Positions 36,059 through 45,808 of a DNA stretch of 64,000 nucleotides are shown here, piece by piece; within the stretch, counting starts at the first letter, position 1; each line of letters begins with the position of its first letter. The notes beneath the pieces are model-generated. The model was not told the origin of the DNA, did not search any database, and saw only the letters and a program-made list of their open reading frames with translations. This DNA comes from Pinguiococcus pyrenoidosus. Taxonomy: Eukaryota; Sar; Pinguiophyceae; Pinguiochrysidales; Pinguiochrysidaceae. Where the stretch lies: positions 186,001 through 250,000 of the forward strand of contig JAAMXY010001516.1 of NCBI GenBank assembly GCA_019677205.1. Direction: 5' to 3'. The position numbers and the translations under genes are program-made.

Positions 36059-36271
36059 ATGGGTCCCAAAAAGCGCCGCGAGGGGGTCGAGACGTGGCCA
36101 CGTGAGACAGACGGACTTGCACCCTTGGGATACGCCCGCAGGTACTTCTTCACGCCCTTGGATCAGCTGATCCGAAGAGAGCCCGCCAAAAAGCTCTCTC
36201 GGGCGCAGCAGCGCTGCTTCTGGCGCGCACGACGCAGCGCCGACCCCGCGCTGATCGCTCCGCTGCGATGA
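36059..36271 (+). other. Upstream ORF overlapping the CDC123-fusion start by four bases (ATGA)
   Basis: A 70-codon ORF starts with ATG at 36059 and stops with TGA at 36269-36271. The main ATG of the next gene is 36268-36270, so stop and start overlap as ATGA. The peptide is basic and matches nothing I recognise. It could be a regulatory uORF, a separate small protein, or sequence removed by an intron (a GT follows an AG near 36140). Whether the mRNA contains it cannot be seen here. Confidence 0.4.
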
Positions 36272-38172
36272 GTCGAGAGGCGCTTGATGCGTGTGCTCTG
36301 GAGAGGTGGTACCCGTACCTCCGCAGACACACGCTGAAGACGCGGTTTGTTCAGCTTTCCCCGGTGGCCCTGAGCTACCTTTCCGAGGATGGCGTCACTT
36401 TGCCGCCGAAAGCTGAGGTCTCCAGCATGTCGACCGTCTCCCTGCGGACCTCGAAGGCATGTGGGAACGACTCGCTGGCCGGACATGAGCAAGTGGCCGC
36501 TCTGGTGGACGAGTTAGACGAAGCCATCTCGGCTCTGGGCGGAGCTGTGTTTCCAAAGCTGCGATGGAGCGCACCACGTGACGCCACGTGGGCCACTGCT
36601 GGCTCCGCGAAGTGCCTCTCTGCTGGGGACGTCCTGCTGCTGCTCAAGAGTTCAGAAATCGTTCTGCATGAGCTGGAGAGCCAGGAGGACAGCGAGACGG
36701 TTTCGGTTGCCATCGGCCTCCGGAAGTGGTGTTCCATGCGCCCCTGCAACGATTTTCGGTGCTTCTGCGCCGCCGGTAGGGTAGTGGGTATATCACAGCG
36801 CGATCTGGGGAAATCGTACAGCTTCTTGCTTGACGAAGACTACCGAGATCGGCTGCTCCAGACGATCTTGAGCGCCTTCGAGCACGCCATTTTGCCGAGC
36901 CACGCTCCGCCCGTGCAGCTCGAGCGCTTCGTCGTGGATGTCTATGTGACCACCGAAGCGAAGCGCGTGGTTGTAGTGGACTTCTCGCCGTGGGGCGAGG
37001 CCGCGGCGACGGATCCTCTGCTGTTCACGTGGCCTGAGCTTGATGGTCTTGCCGCCGGGGCCTCGGCAGCTTCAGAGCTCGACCTTGAGCACTTGCGAGT
37101 TGTGGGAGAGACAGAGCAGAGTGGCACCATCCTGCGCAATCCTTTCTCAGAGTTTCGCGCACCGCTTGAGACACAGCTGCTGCAGAATGGGGTCAGCGGG
37201 GTGTCGTTCATGGACTTCATGAAGATGTGCAAGGCGGGGGGCTACTCGGACACGGAGAGCGGCGAGGAAGAAGCCGAAGGGCAGGCCGGTGGAGAGGACG
37301 CCGACGCAAGCGCGAAGCAGCGAATCATCAAGGCGGCCACGGCGATCCTGCTGACGCCGGACCCGTTCGAGAAGGCGAGGCTGAGCTCGGTGGTCTACGG
37401 GGCTTGGGAAGATGATCAGCTGCAATGCACACCAGGGCCGCTTTCGGAGGCATTTGAAGCGATCGGGGAGCAAGCCCTGCAAGAGCCGCCGGTGGCGCCA
37501 GCGCGGCCCAGCGCACCAGACACAGATCCGGACGCACTGCGGAGTAAGTTCCGGAAGATCAAGCTGGGAAACCGGAAAGGACTTCTGCACTCGATTGCAC
37601 ACGCGGAGTCGTACGCCATTGATTTGATGTGGGATTTGATAGCGCGCTTCGGCAGCGGCATGGTGGTGGAGGGGGAAGAGGGAGCGCGTCGGCTTCCAAT
37701 CGAATTCTTCAATGATTTCGCCGAGGCAGCTGCGGAGGAAGCAAGGCATTTCCTGGCTTGGTGCGGGCGGCTCGAGGCGATCGGGGCTCCGTACGGATCC
37801 TTGCCGACGCACGACGGGCTTTGGGAGAGCGCTGCTCAGACCGCCGATGATCTCGCCGCACGGCTCGTGATCGTCCACTGCATCCATGAAGCGCGTGGCC
37901 TCGACACGTTTCAGAGCACGCGGGAGAAGCTGCAGCGCTGCCAAGACGACGAAAGCATTCGAGTGCTGGAACAGAACGTGGAAGAGGAGGTGCAGCACGT
38001 CCGGAAGGGAGTCTCCTGGCTCCACTGGTTGGCGGACACTAGAGGGATGGACGCGAGGGAGCTTTTTGATCGTGCCTTGACGGAGCGCTTTGTGGGAGGT
38101 CTTAAACCTCCCTTCAACCTAGAACTTCGCGACAGAACGCGAATGCCACGGTCCTGGTACCTGAAGGAGTGA
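36268..38172 (+). CDS. CDC123: CDC123 (eIF2 assembly factor) fused to a DUF455 ferritin-like domain
   Basis: One uninterrupted ORF of 634 aa with two recognisable halves. Residues 1 to about 265 are CDC123/D123, an ATP-grasp-like chaperone that assembles eIF2. WYPYLRRHTLKTRFVQLS, FPKLRWSAPRDATW, LRKWCSMRPCNDFRCFC and VVVVDFSPWGEAAATDPLLF (about 230-250) are diagnostic. After a linker of about 115 residues, residues 385-630 match DUF455, a MiaE-related ferritin-like family. HSIAHAESYAIDLMWD, AAEEARHFLAW, THDGLWESAAQTADD and EEEVQHVRKGV supply the expected Glu and His metal ligands, and GGLKPPFNLELRDR is the typical end. CDC123 normally stands alone at about 330 residues. The ORF has no break or intron between the halves, so this appears to be a true fusion. 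Confidence 0.9.
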   Translation: MSREALDACALERWYPYLRRHTLKTRFVQLSPVALSYLSEDGVTLPPKAEVSSMSTVSLRTSKACGNDSLAGHEQVAALVDELDEAISALGGAVFPKLRWSAPRDATWATAGSAKCLSAGDVLLLLKSSEIVLHELESQEDSETVSVAIGLRKWCSMRPCNDFRCFCAAGRVVGISQRDLGKSYSFLLDEDYRDRLLQTILSAFEHAILPSHAPPVQLERFVVDVYVTTEAKRVVVVDFSPWGEAAATDPLLFTWPELDGLAAGASAASELDLEHLRVVGETEQSGTILRNPFSEFRAPLETQLLQNGVSGVSFMDFMKMCKAGGYSDTESGEEEAEGQAGGEDADASAKQRIIKAATAILLTPDPFEKARLSSVVYGAWEDDQLQCTPGPLSEAFEAIGEQALQEPPVAPARPSAPDTDPDALRSKFRKIKLGNRKGLLHSIAHAESYAIDLMWDLIARFGSGMVVEGEEGARRLPIEFFNDFAEAAAEEARHFLAWCGRLEAIGAPYGSLPTHDGLWESAAQTADDLAARLVIVHCIHEARGLDTFQSTREKLQRCQDDESIRVLEQNVEEEVQHVRKGVSWLHWLADTRGMDARELFDRALTERFVGGLKPPFNLELRDRTRMPRSWYLKE

Positions 38173-38262: not shown

Positions 38263-39637
38263 TCACTGGTGCAAAAACGCCTCAAACTCGGCCAGCTCGT
38301 CTTCGATGCTCTTCATCTTCGCCATTTCTGGCGCGAGCTCAGGCGGCACCGTCGTGCTCGACGTCGACTCGTCTTGAGCTGCTGTCGCTGTCGTTGGAGG
38401 CGAACTGACAGGGGCGGATTCTTCCAAAGGAGGGGCGCTCGCGGTTTCTGCGCTCAGCGGCCCTTGCTCCTTCGGCGCAGCATCCCCGGCGCTTTCGACG
38501 GCTGCGTGGACCGGCTCCACCGCAGCCTTCGCAGCCATGGCCTTTGCGGCCCTCTTCTCCGCCATGATCTCGGCGAAGCTCTTGATCTTCGGCAGAACTT
38601 GCGTCGCGGGGTGCTCTCCGCCGCCGTCTGCGTCTGTCCGCTGCCGTTTCGTGATGCTCTCTGTGTCGCTCGGTTTTTGCTGCGCTTGTCGTTTCCCAAG
38701 TTTTCCGTCCGCTCGTCCACTCTTCTTTTCGCCTTGCTGCGGGAAGCCCTGCTTTGCCGAGAAGACCGACGTCGCCGAATTTTTGCTGAGGATGGACTGG
38801 GCCTTCTTTTGGGTCTCTCCCGCTGCGTTTGTCGCTTTCGCTTTCGCTTGTCGGGCCGGGCTCAGAGCGGACGCAGGAAGTCCTCCTTCTGTCGCCGTGC
38901 CACTGTTCGCATTCTTCTCCGGCGTCTTCGTCTGGAAGCGAAGCCGATTCTTCTCCGCCAGTTTCGCAGCGACCTCGCGCTGCGCAGCTGCTTCTTTCTT
39001 TTGGAGCGCCTCCGCCTCCTCCCGCTCCGCTCGTGGGGGACTGTTCTCCAGGCCCTCCACTCCGCTCTGTACAGCTCCTGCTTTTTCATACACTGGCCAT
39101 CGTCGCAGACAACGCGAGGACTTAGTCGCCCTTTCCTTGCACGAGACCTCGAGGAGAAGTGGACATCGTCAAATCCTACCTCGAGAAGCCACGAAGCTCT
39201 CCACACCTCTGCCTCTGCCTCTGCCCCTTCCCAGGCCCCGCCCGCGTCCTCTCGCATGTCCACCACGCATCGCTCTTGGGACGTTGACTCTCTTGCGGAT
39301 GATCTTGAGATTGCGGCCCAAAAACTCGTGTCCATCTAAAGATAAGGCTCTGTCGACCGAGGCCGCGTCGGCGAAAGCCACATAGGCAAAGCCTTTTGGA
39401 TGGCCTCCGAAGCCCACAGGGATTGTGACGCGCTGCACAGCACCGCAGCTCTCAAACAGCGTCTTCAGCTGCTCGGGTGTGCAGCTGTAGTCCACCTGCA
39501 GCCAGAGAAAGAGAGCGAGAGAGATGGGAAGAGAGCCCAAGTCTTCGTGATTGGCGTCGGAACGGAGATGTCCACCATGAAATGTGAAGTACCTGGCCGA
39601 CATACACGGACGCAGCATCTATCTCGTCGCTGGACAT
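38263..39637 (-). CDS. PABPN1-like RRM protein with RG-rich region and long C-terminal extension
   Basis: Exons 39637-39593, 39495-39180 and 39092-38263 (396 aa). Exon 1 encodes MSSDEIDAASVYVGQ and exon 2 continues VDYSCTPEQLKTLFESCGAV, reconstituting RNP2. RNP1 follows as KGFAYVAF, then RNLKIIRKRVNVPRAM. That order matches nuclear poly(A)-binding protein 2 (PABPN1). An RG tract (GRGRGLGRGRGRGRG) comes next. A phase-1 junction leads to an Ala/Lys/Glu-rich tail of about 275 residues that PABPN1 lacks, containing LPKIKSFAEIMAEKRAAKAM and ending DELAEFEAFLHQ. Reading through the second donor would instead stop at 39169 after VASRGRI, giving a compact PABPN1, so alternative retention is possible. 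Exon 3 has no ATG at its beginning, which supports joining. Confidence 0.78.
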
Positions 39638-39948: not shown

Positions 39949-42079
39949 ATGGTGGAAGCGACGTTCCAGCTCGAGCACCTGAACCTCGGGGTGAAGGATG
40001 CCAGTTACAAGGACGGCTTCCTGCCGGACTGCCGCTCCGGAAAGAGCGGAAATCTCTGCGTCGTGTTCTCGGCCAGCGCGGACCAGAGCCTGCTTCTCTG
40101 CCTCTCCGGCGCCCCGCGGAAGACCAAAGACTGCTACGAGCTCTGCATTGGCGCGTACGGCAACACTGAAGTGTGGCTGAAGAGAGGGAGGCTGCAAGTC
40201 GCAAGAGTTCCCGCGCGTTTGTGCAAGGGGGACGAGCATGTTACGTACTGGTTGACCATGTCCAATGGGAAGATCTGCTTCGGCGTCGGCTGGGAAATGG
40301 TACGTCGTGGAAACTTGCATCTCTTTTTGGCCTTGGCCGGAGACGTGCTCTTGTGAGTTTGAGAAAGTAAACGCGCCAAGAATCGAAGCCTTTCTAACCG
40401 AGAGCTGCGCAGGGACGAGGCACCGTCCTCGCGTACCAAGACCAGGAGCCGCTGCAAGTGGAGCATGTGGGCTTCTCGTCGGGCCTTCGTCCGGCCATCT
40501 ACCGGAACATCAATGTGGGATACATGCAGGACCCCATGGGCTTCAATCCCGAGCAGCCGGAGCAGGCCTTCGCGACGATTCAGACGGCGGGAGACGCCCC
40601 GGAGGCGACGCCGACGGTGATCCGCAGCACGCGCGACGAAGACGACGCCGCCATTCGAAGGTATCAAGAGGTCTGCAAGAAAGCCAAGGAGCGAGCAGAT
40701 CGCTTCGGGGTGCCCTACGTACCTCCGGCGCCATCTTCCGCGCTGCCTTGGTCGGTGGCGAAGCGACTGAGCCAGAACATCACGGGCGCAGCTGCCCCAA
40801 CGGTGTCTGTTGGCTTTGACGTGACCTCGGAGGAGGCGCAGGCGAAGATGAAGGAGCGTGCGGACCGATTCGGCGTGGATAGCGCCGATGCGAAAGCCCA
40901 GGCGTTGGCACAGGAAGAATCCGTCCTGATGTCTAAGAGGCGGGAAAGATTCGGCCTGGAGCGCGACCTTCGAGGTGTGACCGCGAAGCAAGGCTTGAAG
41001 GTCAAGCAAATCTTCGGTGCAGACCCCAAAAGGACGGATCCGGCCACGGAGAGCAGCCTGGCTGGAGACCCAGACGCCAGCTTCGCCATTGAAGCGGGCG
41101 CGCTGCTGTCCTCCCAGCCTTTGCCGCACAAGCTGCATCTCCACTGCCTTCCTGACGATCGCGAGCAGTTCAAGGCGATCCGTTCGGGCGACATCTATCG
41201 GCACTTTGGTGGATTTGGCGCAAGCTACGTCGAATGGCTGGGACCGACGGCGTGCAATGTGCATTTTGGAGACGAGTTTAGCGCGAAGCGAGCGCTGGTT
41301 AGCAAGAGCTATGAGCTGCCAAGCCTCGAGGAAGCGAAGCAGTTGCACCTTGCCGAGTCGACTTCCAGCGCGAGTGCACCCCAGGAAGCGAAGGCGGAGA
41401 ACGTCGCAGAGAATAGCACAGTGAATGGCGCGAAGAGTGGCACGGAGGAGAAGGAAAGCGAGTCCGAAGGAACGGATGGCGTCCACGCGATGGACGAAGA
41501 GAAGGAAGCGCAGCAAGAGGAGAAGAAAATGCAAGAGGCATCTTCGGCGGAGGAGACGGCGAGCTGGCCGGATCTCAAAGAGATGGGATGGCGCCTAGGC
41601 GCGCCGATCATGAAGGTGTGACGAGGGCATCGTCGCTTCTGGACGGAGCTTGCCTGACGATACGAATCTTTTCCCTCGTGTTCCTCCAGGGCAAATCCGA
41701 CGAGTGGGGGAAAAAAGGAATTCGCGTGCGACTCCTCGTGCGCGTGGCAACGTCTGAAGATGTTCTTCATGAGGTGAGACGGAGCACGCGCGCTTTCTGC
41801 AATGGCAAAGGTTCTCAAAGGTTTTCACTTTGCTGCATCGCGTAGAAACCTGAGGAGCCCTTGCTCCCTCCTTCGCTGTCTCGCCGATCGCAGAACCGGA
41901 GGCGGAGGGAGGCGACCAGCTGGGACCGAGGGCTCACGCTGAAGCGAAAAGTCCGCCGCGACTCGGAGCGGCCTGAGGAAGAATCCATGGATGCAGATAT
42001 CATTGAGGAGAGGGACGGTAGAAGGACCCACCGAGGCCGATGGAAGAAGAGGCGGACCAGCCGAAGCCACGAGCACTGA
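39949..42079 (+). CDS. NCBP3: NCBP3-like cap-binding/export protein fused to FAMeT and Tho1/MOS11 repeats
   Basis: Exons 39949-40299, 40413-41615, 41690-41773 and 41846-42079 (623 aa, all phase 0). Residues 1-150 match a farnesoic acid O-methyltransferase-type (FAMeT) domain: YELCIGAYGNTEVWLKRG, VTYWLTMSNGKICFGVGWEM and LQVEHVGFSS. Three basic repeats follow, KERADRFGVPY (about 207), KERADRFGVDS (about 262) and SKRRERFGLER (about 290). They are like the RAxRFG repeats of Tho1/MOS11/SARNP, an RNA-binding export factor. Residues 360-430 (HKLHLHCLPDD, DIYRHFGGFGASYVEWLG, CNVHFGDEFSAKRALVS) match the NCBP3 RRM. WRLGAP, VRLLVRVATSEDV and a basic tail follow as in NCBP3. The parent families act in nuclear mRNA maturation and export. 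Confidence 0.82.
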
Positions 42080-42264: not shown

Positions 42265-43525
42265 TCAGGGAATCTTCTCCTGATGCTGGTCTCCCTTTGG
42301 GAGAATGATCGTCACAGTCGTTCCGTGGCCTGGTGCGGACGAAAGCAGCAGTCTGCCATGAAGGTACTCAAGCATGCTCGTGGCTATGGGAAGGCCGTAG
42401 CCGAGCCCTGCGAGAGGCGGTCGCTGCGGCGAGTCGTAGGACTGCTGCTCGTCGAGCCGATCGTAGCGCTTCATGTTGCGCCTATCGCGGGACCACCGCT
42501 GGATGGAGTCCAAGTGATCCGGTTCCATGCCGAGGGCGCGGTCCTGCACGGTGATGGCCACCGACTTCGGGCTCTCACTGACGGTGACGGTGATGACGTT
42601 CTTGAGCACTTCTCTACCGATTGTGGCGCTCAAGGCATTCTTCATCACCTCTAGTAGTCCGTGATAGACAAAGCGCGCGGGGAACCAGGATTCTCCTGCT
42701 GGCGCCGTCTTGGAAGCGGGCTGCATCAATTCCACCTGCATCTGTGGCAGAAACTTGGATGAGGGCTCCAGGAAGGCGCTTGCTCCGGTACATGCAGGGT
42801 AGCCTACCTCGGGTAGCACCCCGTGCACCGAGTCGCAGATCAGCATCGCCTGCTGCCGAGTGTCTTCTACGATATCGGGTAAGGTCGCCATGGACTCGAA
42901 CACTCCCACCGAAGTATCCAGCGGACATGTTGCCTCTGGCAAGAGACGAGAAACCACCACAAAGGCGCGGCAGCTGCGTCAGCATATCATGCTCGTTGCG
43001 CGCCAAGGCAGCAGCTCGACGTTGCCTACCATCGGCGTGGAAGCCACGACGGTCAAAGCCTCGCTGCTTGGCGGTGGCCAGGAAATGCTGCAGAAAGAGC
43101 GTCGTTCCCACGTGGGACATCACCACGTCCCGGAGACTCTGCTCGGCGTTCTTCCCTCTCCAGACATACTCGTTCACTTCTTCGCAGAAGAGCTCCAGGA
43201 AGGTCGCTCGCTGGGCGTCGACGGAGGCGTAGTGCTTCACCAGGTCCTCGAAGGCCTTTTGGGAATGGGTCTTCTCCACGATGCCGCGCAGGCCATCGAG
43301 CTTCTCCAGCGAGTTCAGCATCATCCGGCACACGGTGGACTTGGGGCCCAGCAGGCGCTGAAGGCGAAGGCATTGGTGAGCGCTTCGGACGCACAGCTCC
43401 TGGTGTGCCTGCGGGGTCCGGCTGAGCAGCTCCGGCACGGAATTCCGCCCGAAGCCCAGGAGGTCTCGGAGGCGATACGGGACTGTCCGTTGAGTCGCAT
43501 AGCGCTGCAGCACTTTGGAGGGCAT
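42265..43525 (-). CDS. Pyruvate/branched-chain 2-oxoacid dehydrogenase kinase (PDK family)
   Basis: Exons 43525-43030 and 42935-42265 (388 aa, phase 1). The enzyme phosphorylates the E1 subunit of mitochondrial pyruvate or branched-chain oxoacid dehydrogenase and inactivates it. The N-terminal helical domain begins VLQRYATQRTVPYRLRDLLG and includes ELCVRSAHQCLRLQRLL and VMSHVGTTLFLQHFLA. The GHKL ATPase part carries the N-box FVYHGLLEVMKNALSATI, a G1-type DRALGMEPDHL, and the G2 box GLGYGLPIATSMLEYLHG, then GHGTTVTIILP. G1 normally reads DxGxG; here the first glycine is replaced by alanine. No clear mitochondrial presequence precedes the fold, so a further upstream exon may be missing. PDK and BCKDK cannot be separated by eye. 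Confidence 0.87.
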
Positions 43526-43924
43526 GCTGCCGCATTCTCCGGGTGATGGCCCTCTCCAGTCCGCAGGTGCGCGGGCGAGAGAAAGATTTTCACGCCGACC
43601 TTGAAGGTCTGTCCATCTGTCCTACGCAGACGCTGCGGGGGCTTCGGAGCTCTCGAGGACCGTCGCAACTCCTGGTGGAGCTTGGGGAGGCGTGTCGAGG
43701 ATGGCAGGTGGAATGTGGAAAGGACGCGAGAGGAGGATGGCAATGATGGCAAGCATGCCGGAAAGCCAGGGGAAGAACGTCTTGCTCTTTGCTGGCGCCG
43801 CTGCGCCCGTCGCCCCAGTTCCAGGGCAGGATGCATCCTACGGGTTTATGCCTCGTCAAGGGCGGGAAGCGCTTGCGTCGCGTCGCGGAAATCTACAGAG
43901 GTGCTTGGGAGGGGGGTGTCGCAC
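43526..43924. other. Spacer between arsenite methyltransferase stop and PDK start
   Basis: About 400 bases between two minus-strand genes. It may hold the PDK promoter and an unrecognised PDK first exon. No supported gene. Confidence 0.4.
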
Positions 43925-45106
43925 TCAGCAGCAGCCGCCGCCCGTGCTCGGGGCCGGCGTCTTGCTATCTTCTTCTGCGGCGGGCGTGGCGCCGAAGAGG
44001 CCAAAATGGGTGTTGCGGTTGCCGATGATCTCGAAGTGGTCTCGAAGCCAGGACTCCCCGACCATGGAGGCGGTGTTGCCGCAGACGAGCTTCGGGCGAT
44101 GCGCCTCGAAGACGTGGCCGGAGTCCAGGGAGTACTCGTTGGGGAAGTCCTCGATGGTGCCCTTGTAGATGGCCACCTCGCCGTAGTCCTCGCAGAGCGT
44201 CTCCATCCCGGCGAGCTTGAAGCAGCGGTACGTGATGCTGTAGAACTTGGCGTTGCCGCAGAGCGCCTTCAGCTCCGGGTCGTTCACCTTGATCTCCTCC
44301 CTGGAGAGCTCTCGCGGATCCAGGAAGCCCACGCTGTGGCAGATGCGCTTGAAGTCCTCGATGTACAGCGCTCCGCCGAGGCATTCGCCCACCATGACCT
44401 CGTGGTCCCGTGCGCTCTGCGGGAGCCGGCGGTCGCAGTACACGTCACTAAAGTAGAACTCGCCGCCCTCGCGCAGCGCGTCATACACCCCCTTGATCAC
44501 GAGCTCCTTGTTCGGCGACAAGTTCACCACGCAGTTGGAAATCACGAGGTCGACGCTCTCCGGCTCCACCCCGGCCTCCGCCAGGAACTCGATCATGCCC
44601 TTCTTGAACGCGATGTTCGGCTTCGCGTAGCCCATCTTCTGCGTGAATTCGTCCACATGGCTCCGCGCCACCTCCAGCTGCTCGTCGGTCATATCAATGC
44701 CTGTGACGAAGCCGTCCTCTCCCACCAGCACCGCAGCCGCGTAGACGTCGCGGCCCGAGCCGGAGCCCAGGTCGAGCACATGCAGGCCCCGAATGCCCGT
44801 GGGCACTGGGTTCCCGCATCCGTAGAAGCGCTCCAGGATCTCGTTCGGCACGTGTTGAATAGCCTTCTTGAAGGCGTTGGTGGGCGCGCTGGCGGTGGTG
44901 CAAGCGGACGTCTTGAGATCCTTGCTGCTGCTCAGCACCTTTCCGTAGTACGTCTGGACGCTCTCGTAGGTGTTTTCGCCCAGCGTGATGCCCTTGCTGG
45001 CGGCGCCGATGCTCGCCGGGCGCGCCGAAACCGGCCAGAAGCGCGGGCTCAGCGTGGTCAGGGCCACCACGGCCCTCGACATGGACCTCCACGTGCTGCT
45101 CATCAT
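43925..45106 (-). CDS. AS3MT: Arsenite S-adenosylmethionine methyltransferase (ArsM/AS3MT)
   Basis: Intronless, 393 aa, ATG at 45106. It methylates As(III) with SAM to mono- and dimethyl arsenicals. The Rossmann motif HVLDLGSGSGRDVYAAAVLV lies near residue 108, with VTGIDMTDEQLEVAR next. The arsenic-binding cysteines appear in SACTTA, FYGCGNPVP, ISNCVVNLSPNKELV and ALCGNAKFYSITYRCFKL. The last blocks are VAIYKGTIEDFPNEYSLD and RDHFEIIGN. It ends GGGCC, as many microbial ArsM proteins end with Cys pairs. About 35 extra N-terminal residues, rich in Ser, Arg and Ala, could be an organelle presequence. The family is widespread in bacteria and algae and often transferred between them. Its base composition looks like its neighbours, so any transfer would be old. 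Confidence 0.95.
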   Translation of the reverse strand: MMSSTWRSMSRAVVALTTLSPRFWPVSARPASIGAASKGITLGENTYESVQTYYGKVLSSSKDLKTSACTTASAPTNAFKKAIQHVPNEILERFYGCGNPVPTGIRGLHVLDLGSGSGRDVYAAAVLVGEDGFVTGIDMTDEQLEVARSHVDEFTQKMGYAKPNIAFKKGMIEFLAEAGVEPESVDLVISNCVVNLSPNKELVIKGVYDALREGGEFYFSDVYCDRRLPQSARDHEVMVGECLGGALYIEDFKRICHSVGFLDPRELSREEIKVNDPELKALCGNAKFYSITYRCFKLAGMETLCEDYGEVAIYKGTIEDFPNEYSLDSGHVFEAHRPKLVCGNTASMVGESWLRDHFEIIGNRNTHFGLFGATPAAEEDSKTPAPSTGGGCC

Positions 45107-45808
45107 TCGAAATCGAGCTCACGAGCGGGTCGGGACGTCGGCGCCGCCGCACCGAACAGCGCAGAACGCACGTCGCCGGCTGAGCGACAGGAGCGGACGA
45201 AATGGCGACGGCCTCGCTGAACCATGATTTGGGCTGCTGCTTCCCCTTTTCCCCCTTTCCCCCGATTCCCATCCTCGCAGCAAGGTCAAGACAGGCTGCA
45301 CGAGCTGCTTTTTGCTTTGGGGCACTGATCGCCAATTGTATCAGAGCGCAACGATGATTGGTGTCCGCAGGTTGAAGAATCTTCGCACTTTATGGGATCT
45401 TAGAACGTTCGGGACGATTCATAATCGGATGACGTCGTCATATCCAAAACCGATTGGTCGAGCCAAAGATTCAGCATTCAGTACACCACCGACAGCGTCT
45501 CTGTCCTCCCGCCTCGAAATCCTCTGTCCTCGGTCCTCTGTCCTCGGTCCTCTGTCCTCGGACCTTCATCATGTCATCACAAGATCACAAGTTACCATAC
45601 GCAAAATTAGCGAAAACCATGCCTTTCACGACTTCCAAAATCTGTTCCTCCTCACCACTTCCAGTATCGGCCGCGGGGTCCGATTTTCGCGCCTTTTCTC
45701 ACCAGCTCGGATCTCCTCCCTCCTCGCGGCTCCACGTTTTCCACAGAACCGCGCGCGCCTTCTCCTCGCAGTCCTGGCCCGTGTCCTCCACAGCAGTACC
45801 TGCGCGCG
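45107..45808. other. Divergent spacer with 14-bp repeats
   Basis: About 700 bases between two divergent starts. It contains a 14-bp tandem repeat at 45521-45562. No supported gene. Confidence 0.5.
45521..45562. repeat. 14-bp tandem repeat, three copies
   Basis: TCCTCTGTCCTCGG occurs three times in a row, about 250 bases upstream of the small secreted-protein start. Confidence 0.85.

Follow-up and report, generated by a model that had tools for sequence, protein, structure and literature searches.

Does the gene at positions 39949-42079 of the window (the whole stretch of 64,000 nucleotides analysed here) encode a fusion of FAMeT, Tho1/MOS11 and NCBP3 modules that serves as the single export adaptor of its lineage, as the original prediction proposed? 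Our analysis indicates that the idea of a Tho1-NCBP3 fusion is mostly wrong. Taken as a whole, the product is likely to be an NCBP3-type UAP56 adaptor that is divergent and multivalent and carries an additional FAMeT domain. This is less remarkable than a three-way fusion, since the UAP56-clamping motif (UCM), and perhaps the WRLGAP block too, are already features of NCBP3. The predicted protein begins with a FAMeT domain, which is followed by two exact and one degenerate UCM and by an NCBP3-type RRM; an acidic linker then leads to a WR-G-P...LL-R-AT--D block and, finally, to an Arg-rich tail (Table 1).

Table 1. Features of the NCBP3-like gene in the window and of the separate SARNP-like gene of the same genome
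Feature	Position	Strand	Remarks
Exon 1	39949..40299	+	residues 1-117, first part of FAMeT; in-phase GT-AG join; P0001 aligns from the same first Met
FAMeT domain (PF12248), residues 34-149	40048..40508	+	interrupted by intron 1 (40300-40412); 48 bits
Exon 2	40413..41615	+	residues 118-518: end of FAMeT, three RFG motifs, RRM, acidic linker, WRLGAP; open frame of 407 aa
UCM1, residues 207-216	40680..40709	+	exact consensus; helix, block-mean pLDDT 82-84 (exon-2 model)
UCM2 with GFDVTSEEA lead, residues 251-271	40812..40874	+	best match to the spider NCBP3 motif
UCM3, residues 293-298, RRERFG	40938..40955	+	degenerate; residues 285-303 identical at 16/19 positions in P0001
NCBP3-type RRM core, residues ~355-420	41124..41321	+	score 93 against spider NCBP3; RRM-like fold matches
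Acidic low-complexity linker, residues ~425-508	41334..41585	+	from sequence; mostly pLDDT <50 (exon-2 model)
Possible third NCBP3 block, residues 510-542, WRLGAP...LLVRVATSED	41589..41761	+	split by intron 2 (41616-41689)
Exon 3	41690..41773	+	residues 519-546: second half of the WR-G-P...LL-R-AT--D block; in-phase GT-AG introns
Exon 4	41846..42079	+	residues 547-623 and stop: Arg-rich tail; in-phase GT-AG intron
SARNP-like gene	locus L017, contig C112, 1417-2271		SAP domain, interrupted by a 75-base intron and followed by four RxxRF motifs

The four predicted exons join in phase at 40299/40413, 41615/41690 and 41773/41846, each time across a GT...AG intron (113, 74 and 72 bases, respectively) and on a codon boundary, giving a product of 623 amino acids followed by a stop. 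Since this gene model is known from genomic sequence alone, exon 1, and FAMeT with it, could have come from another transcript. However, the PF12248 match crosses the first join and rises from 29.8 bits for exon 1 alone (exon-by-exon genome profile search) to 48 bits for the joined exons (E 1.4e-12, cut-off 24.2, Pfam scan). Moreover, P0001, a predicted protein of 385 amino acids from a JGI metagenome, shares the initial MVE of the window protein and runs collinear with it over this join. Because a single chain of P0001 carries FAMeT together with the three RFG motifs, exon 1 can be assigned to this gene, which disposes of the refuting case that the original prediction had set for this exon; an artefact at this join is hardly credible. 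The join of exons 2 and 3 is suggested by its in-phase splice sites and by a faint alignment to a spider NCBP3 (P0002) that spans it, within the NCBP3-like block. The expected basic tail was located in exon 4; no homologue of this exon or of its Arg-rich tail was seen.

P0001 is 61% identical to the window protein over 52% of the query in the database search, and 65% identical in a pairwise alignment; over window residues 1-165, the FAMeT-region search gave 64%. The collinearity extends through all three RFG motifs. Identity reaches 101/160 in the FAMeT region, 26/32 around UCM1, 23/25 in the linker that follows UCM1 (PPAPS..LPWSVAKRL) and 16/19 around UCM3; UCM2 is less conserved (15/25), and lower values are found in residues 161-185 (11/25) and 243-249 (2/7). 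P0001 departs from the common sequence before the RRM; hence, FAMeT and RRM are seen joined in this genome alone. Splicing is usually ignored when metagenome proteins of this kind are predicted, so that the contig encoding P0001 probably lacks intron 1. P0001 was the single match of the whole-protein search (7994 scored candidates) and of the FAMeT-region search (131 scored candidates), and scans of viral_contigs and genome_contigs for more relatives gave 18 and 34 pattern matches, none of them confirmed; the relative searches require shared 5-residue words and a similar length and could therefore be escaped by distant FAMeT-NCBP3 fusions.

The FAMeT domain, predicted from the outset, passed the PF12248 profile search well above its cut-off. 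Exon 1 was the only match to this profile reported in the genome at E <= 0.001, P0001 scores 41.2 bits, and a low-confidence structure model of P0001 shows the domain as a beta-sandwich. PF12248 was not seen by Pfam scan in P0002, the one NCBP3 compared, relative to which the domain appears as a new element. The FAMeT proteins of insects and crustaceans share PF12248 with the window protein. However, according to PMC10015273, they carry it in tandem or with DUF3421, whereas here it would head a protein with UCM and RRM; the same text calls their function unclear and possibly not enzymatic. The literature search found no paper pairing NCBP3 with the exact phrase 'farnesoic acid methyltransferase' (the 'O-' spelling lay outside its scope), and the two papers found for NCBP3 and alga were off-topic by title and abstract; neither result implies absence of the combination from print.

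The three RFG repeats were also confirmed, the RxxRFG motifs starting at residues 211, 266 and 293. Two of them (207-216 and 262-271) agree exactly with the published UCM consensus, R/KxxxRAxRFG, which occurs in five copies in SARNP (Nature 2025, PMC12823420). The third is off consensus: by eye, the first R/K is replaced by L and the A by R. When residues 186-326 were shuffled (n=200000), at least one exact motif arose in 20 shuffles and two in none. In PMC12823420, an alignment shows putative UCM copies in LENG8 and human NCBP3, and an NCBP3-UAP56 contact is predicted on the RecA2 lobe. Spider NCBP3 has one UCM-type motif, located before its RRM; compared with it, the three motifs of the window protein (two exact, one degenerate) would constitute a new feature. 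Furthermore, the three copies obtain scores of 48, 65 and 41 with the spider motif and of <=37 with the SARNP-like segments of this genome. An NCBP3 motif that has multiplied is thus favoured over a captured SARNP tail, these motifs being too short to settle descent. A multiple alignment hinted at an extended NCBP3 block before UCM2; this candidate was rejected, the flank alone being no more like spider NCBP3 than expected by chance (2083/5000 shuffles). The spider protein itself matches FoP_duplication (PF13865, 29.8 bits) in three stretches over a repeated LDSELDSYR, the best one at residues 461-506. We take these repeats to resemble the UAP56-binding motif of CHTOP, and spider NCBP3 is perhaps multivalent by this other motif.

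The C-terminal part of the window protein is very likely affiliated with NCBP3 (C17orf85; PF10309). Residues 190-440 retrieve P0002 with an E value of 1.3e-3 from a database of 5.8 billion proteins, and P0001 and P0002 were the only 2 matches at E <= 10 among 7956 candidates. P0002, the single NCBP3 in our comparison sample, is a spider protein whose UniRef name begins with nuclear cap-binding protein subunit and which is a hypothetical protein at NCBI, and it matches PF10309 with 65.8 bits. BLASTP aligns the UCM and the RRM of the two proteins in the same order. The UCM precedes an RRM core with VEW....(A/S)CNV..DE....RAL, which is followed by an acidic stretch and then, as a weak and only possible match, by a WR-G-P...LL-R-AT--D block. 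In a block-by-block comparison with shuffled sequences, whose segments were picked after the alignment had been seen, UCM2 scores 65 (0/2000 shuffles reached it, best 42), the RRM 93 (0/2000, best 50) and the third block 44 with an 11-residue gap (5/2000), and the C-terminal part as a whole is not beyond shuffles (722/2000). Conversely, the spider RRM searched against the 23.7 Mb genome at E <= 1 found one place, this gene (E 1.1e-5). An exon-2 structure model of middling confidence has strands and helices in RRM order, and RRM-like fold matches were found. The WRLGAP that had been predicted is present (residues 510-515, from 41589); it has a weaker counterpart, WRVGEP, in spider NCBP3.

Besides the N-terminal FAMeT and the three RFG motifs against one in the spider protein, the window protein differs from NCBP3 in that its PF10309 match is below the curated cut-off (E 0.17, 12.2 bits, cut-off 28.9). 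The predicted NCBP3-type RRM thus held in the comparison with spider NCBP3 and failed in the profile search. In the genome, a PF10309 search with E up to 1 scored no candidate, though the spider RRM found this gene. An unrelated RRM protein may have gained UCMs and may act as a SARNP-like UAP56 clamp, in which case its RRM would not be NCBP3 by descent. The low PF10309 score is compatible with such an origin, as are the slightly higher score of PF08675 (RNA_bind, 14.8 bits, but 14.4 in spider NCBP3), the absence of WLDD and the weakness of the third block. However, this origin is unlikely given that UCM and RRM are arranged as in spider NCBP3 and both match it better than any of 2000 shuffles, that an NCBP3 is the sole database match besides P0001 and that UCM2 resembles NCBP3 more (65) than the SARNP-like segments (<=37).

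A true fusion of SARNP/Tho1, NCBP3 and FAMeT, acting as the single export adaptor of the lineage, would account for the presence of all elements in one gene model and for three motifs that recall the array of SARNP. Like SARNP/CIP29/Tho1/MOS11 (PF18592), the window protein repeats R/KxxxRAxRFG, which is predicted to clamp UAP56. However, PF18592 gives 19.3 bits in the window protein (E 0.0011), below its curated cut-off of 26.8. This cut-off is a strict test in this genome since a separate SARNP-like protein misses it too (22.6 bits in exon 2), and a genome search with PF18592 reported neither gene. The gene of this second protein contradicts a single fused adaptor: its product (259 aa, gene model built here) has a SAP domain (first part, 30.5 bits) and four RxxRF motifs, one of which is an exact UCM. 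Searched against the genome with E up to 1, the SAP profile gave 27 matches; the motif scan covered 20 of these loci and five from other searches, and among the 20 listed loci an exact UCM was found only in this gene. For the window protein, the Pfam scan with E up to 10 listed five families, none of them SAP, and the motif scores are nearer to spider NCBP3. Moreover, the putative UCM of human NCBP3 (alignment in PMC12823420) and the one before the spider RRM suggest that NCBP3 has a UCM of its own, without a Tho1/MOS11 module. The three-way fusion is therefore very improbable, and an NCBP3-type protein with multiplied motifs remains the preferred reading.

The name of this family does not guarantee cap binding in the alga. 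Human NCBP3 binds the cap through WLDD, and a change to ALAA abolishes this binding (PMC4595607). The window protein has WLGP at the corresponding position (residues 392-395). Since the Trp is retained here but both Asp are replaced, recognition of the cap by this motif is probably weak or lost. The motif seems to vary within the NCBP3 family too, since the spider relative has WIND. Hence, 'cap-binding' should be used with care in a name for this protein.

On the basis of its motifs, the window protein may well bind UAP56, although somewhat less surely than it belongs with NCBP3. The UCM helices would dock on the RecA2 lobe of UAP56/DDX39B and hold the helicase on mRNA, by analogy only with SARNP, whose UCM binding helps to release the THO complex and has been proposed to retain UAP56 on RNA (PMC12823420). 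Such a release would be expected here by the same analogy only. The RRM and the Arg-rich basic tail would contact RNA or the mRNP and thus place the protein on mRNPs, and a chain with several UCMs could recruit two or more helicases or grip one of them better than one motif would allow. FAMeT probably forms a beta-sandwich and serves as a binding module, which would tie the complex to a partner; its ligand is a guess. Alternatively, the RFG helices might bind a partner other than UAP56, the protein being an RNA-binding scaffold outside export. UAP56 binding is here predicted from the motif, and the third motif departs from the consensus; however, two copies of the exact published consensus, a pair that none of the 200000 shuffles produced, make this improbable. 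According to PMC7544205, human NCBP3 is found in association with TREX and EJC and promotes export jointly with THOC3; its depletion alone causes no prominent export defect, which counts against the preferred reading. Genome profile searches for NCBP1 (PF09088) and ARS2 (PF04959) gave no match, controls being equally silent.

Several neighbouring frames of the window were also recognised. On the forward strand, an unbroken frame of 688 codons from stop to stop (36106-38169) encodes D123 (PF07065, 211.7 bits) followed by DUF455 (PF04305, 236.3 bits) in one exon. On the reverse strand, an RRM_1 frame (39169-39618, 55.2 bits) with an RG-rich tail, PABPN1-like as judged by eye, is oriented head to head with the NCBP3-like gene, from which a short AT-rich spacer separates it. 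The reverse strand also carries a frame resembling mitochondrial branched-chain ketoacid dehydrogenase kinase (42614-43621; PF10436, 23.5 bits, slightly below its cut-off of 24) and a methyltransferase (43925-45118; PF13847, 101.4 bits), arsenite-methyltransferase-like by eye. In the genome, the chlorophyll-binding family PF00504 has 29 matches, counted exon by exon. Hence, the source organism is probably photosynthetic.

PMC4595607 describes NCBP3 orthologues of the fungal and the metazoan kingdom. As judged from sequence, the window protein is probably an algal nuclear RNP protein of the NCBP3 type, though a divergent one. Such an NCBP3 would extend the family and suggest that the link to UAP56 can be multivalent. 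It would also place the poorly understood PF12248 in an mRNP context and, since partners can be predicted for the rest of the protein, may offer a concrete handle on the ligands of FAMeT domains. More tentatively, and as a rather doubtful possibility, the algal FAMeT could be a nuclear module recognising a partner or a modification, the three linked UCMs delivering several UAP56 molecules to chosen mRNPs. If this were true, NCBP3 would act alongside SARNP as an export adaptor that is both selective and multivalent, and a role in nuclear RNPs would fall to PF12248.
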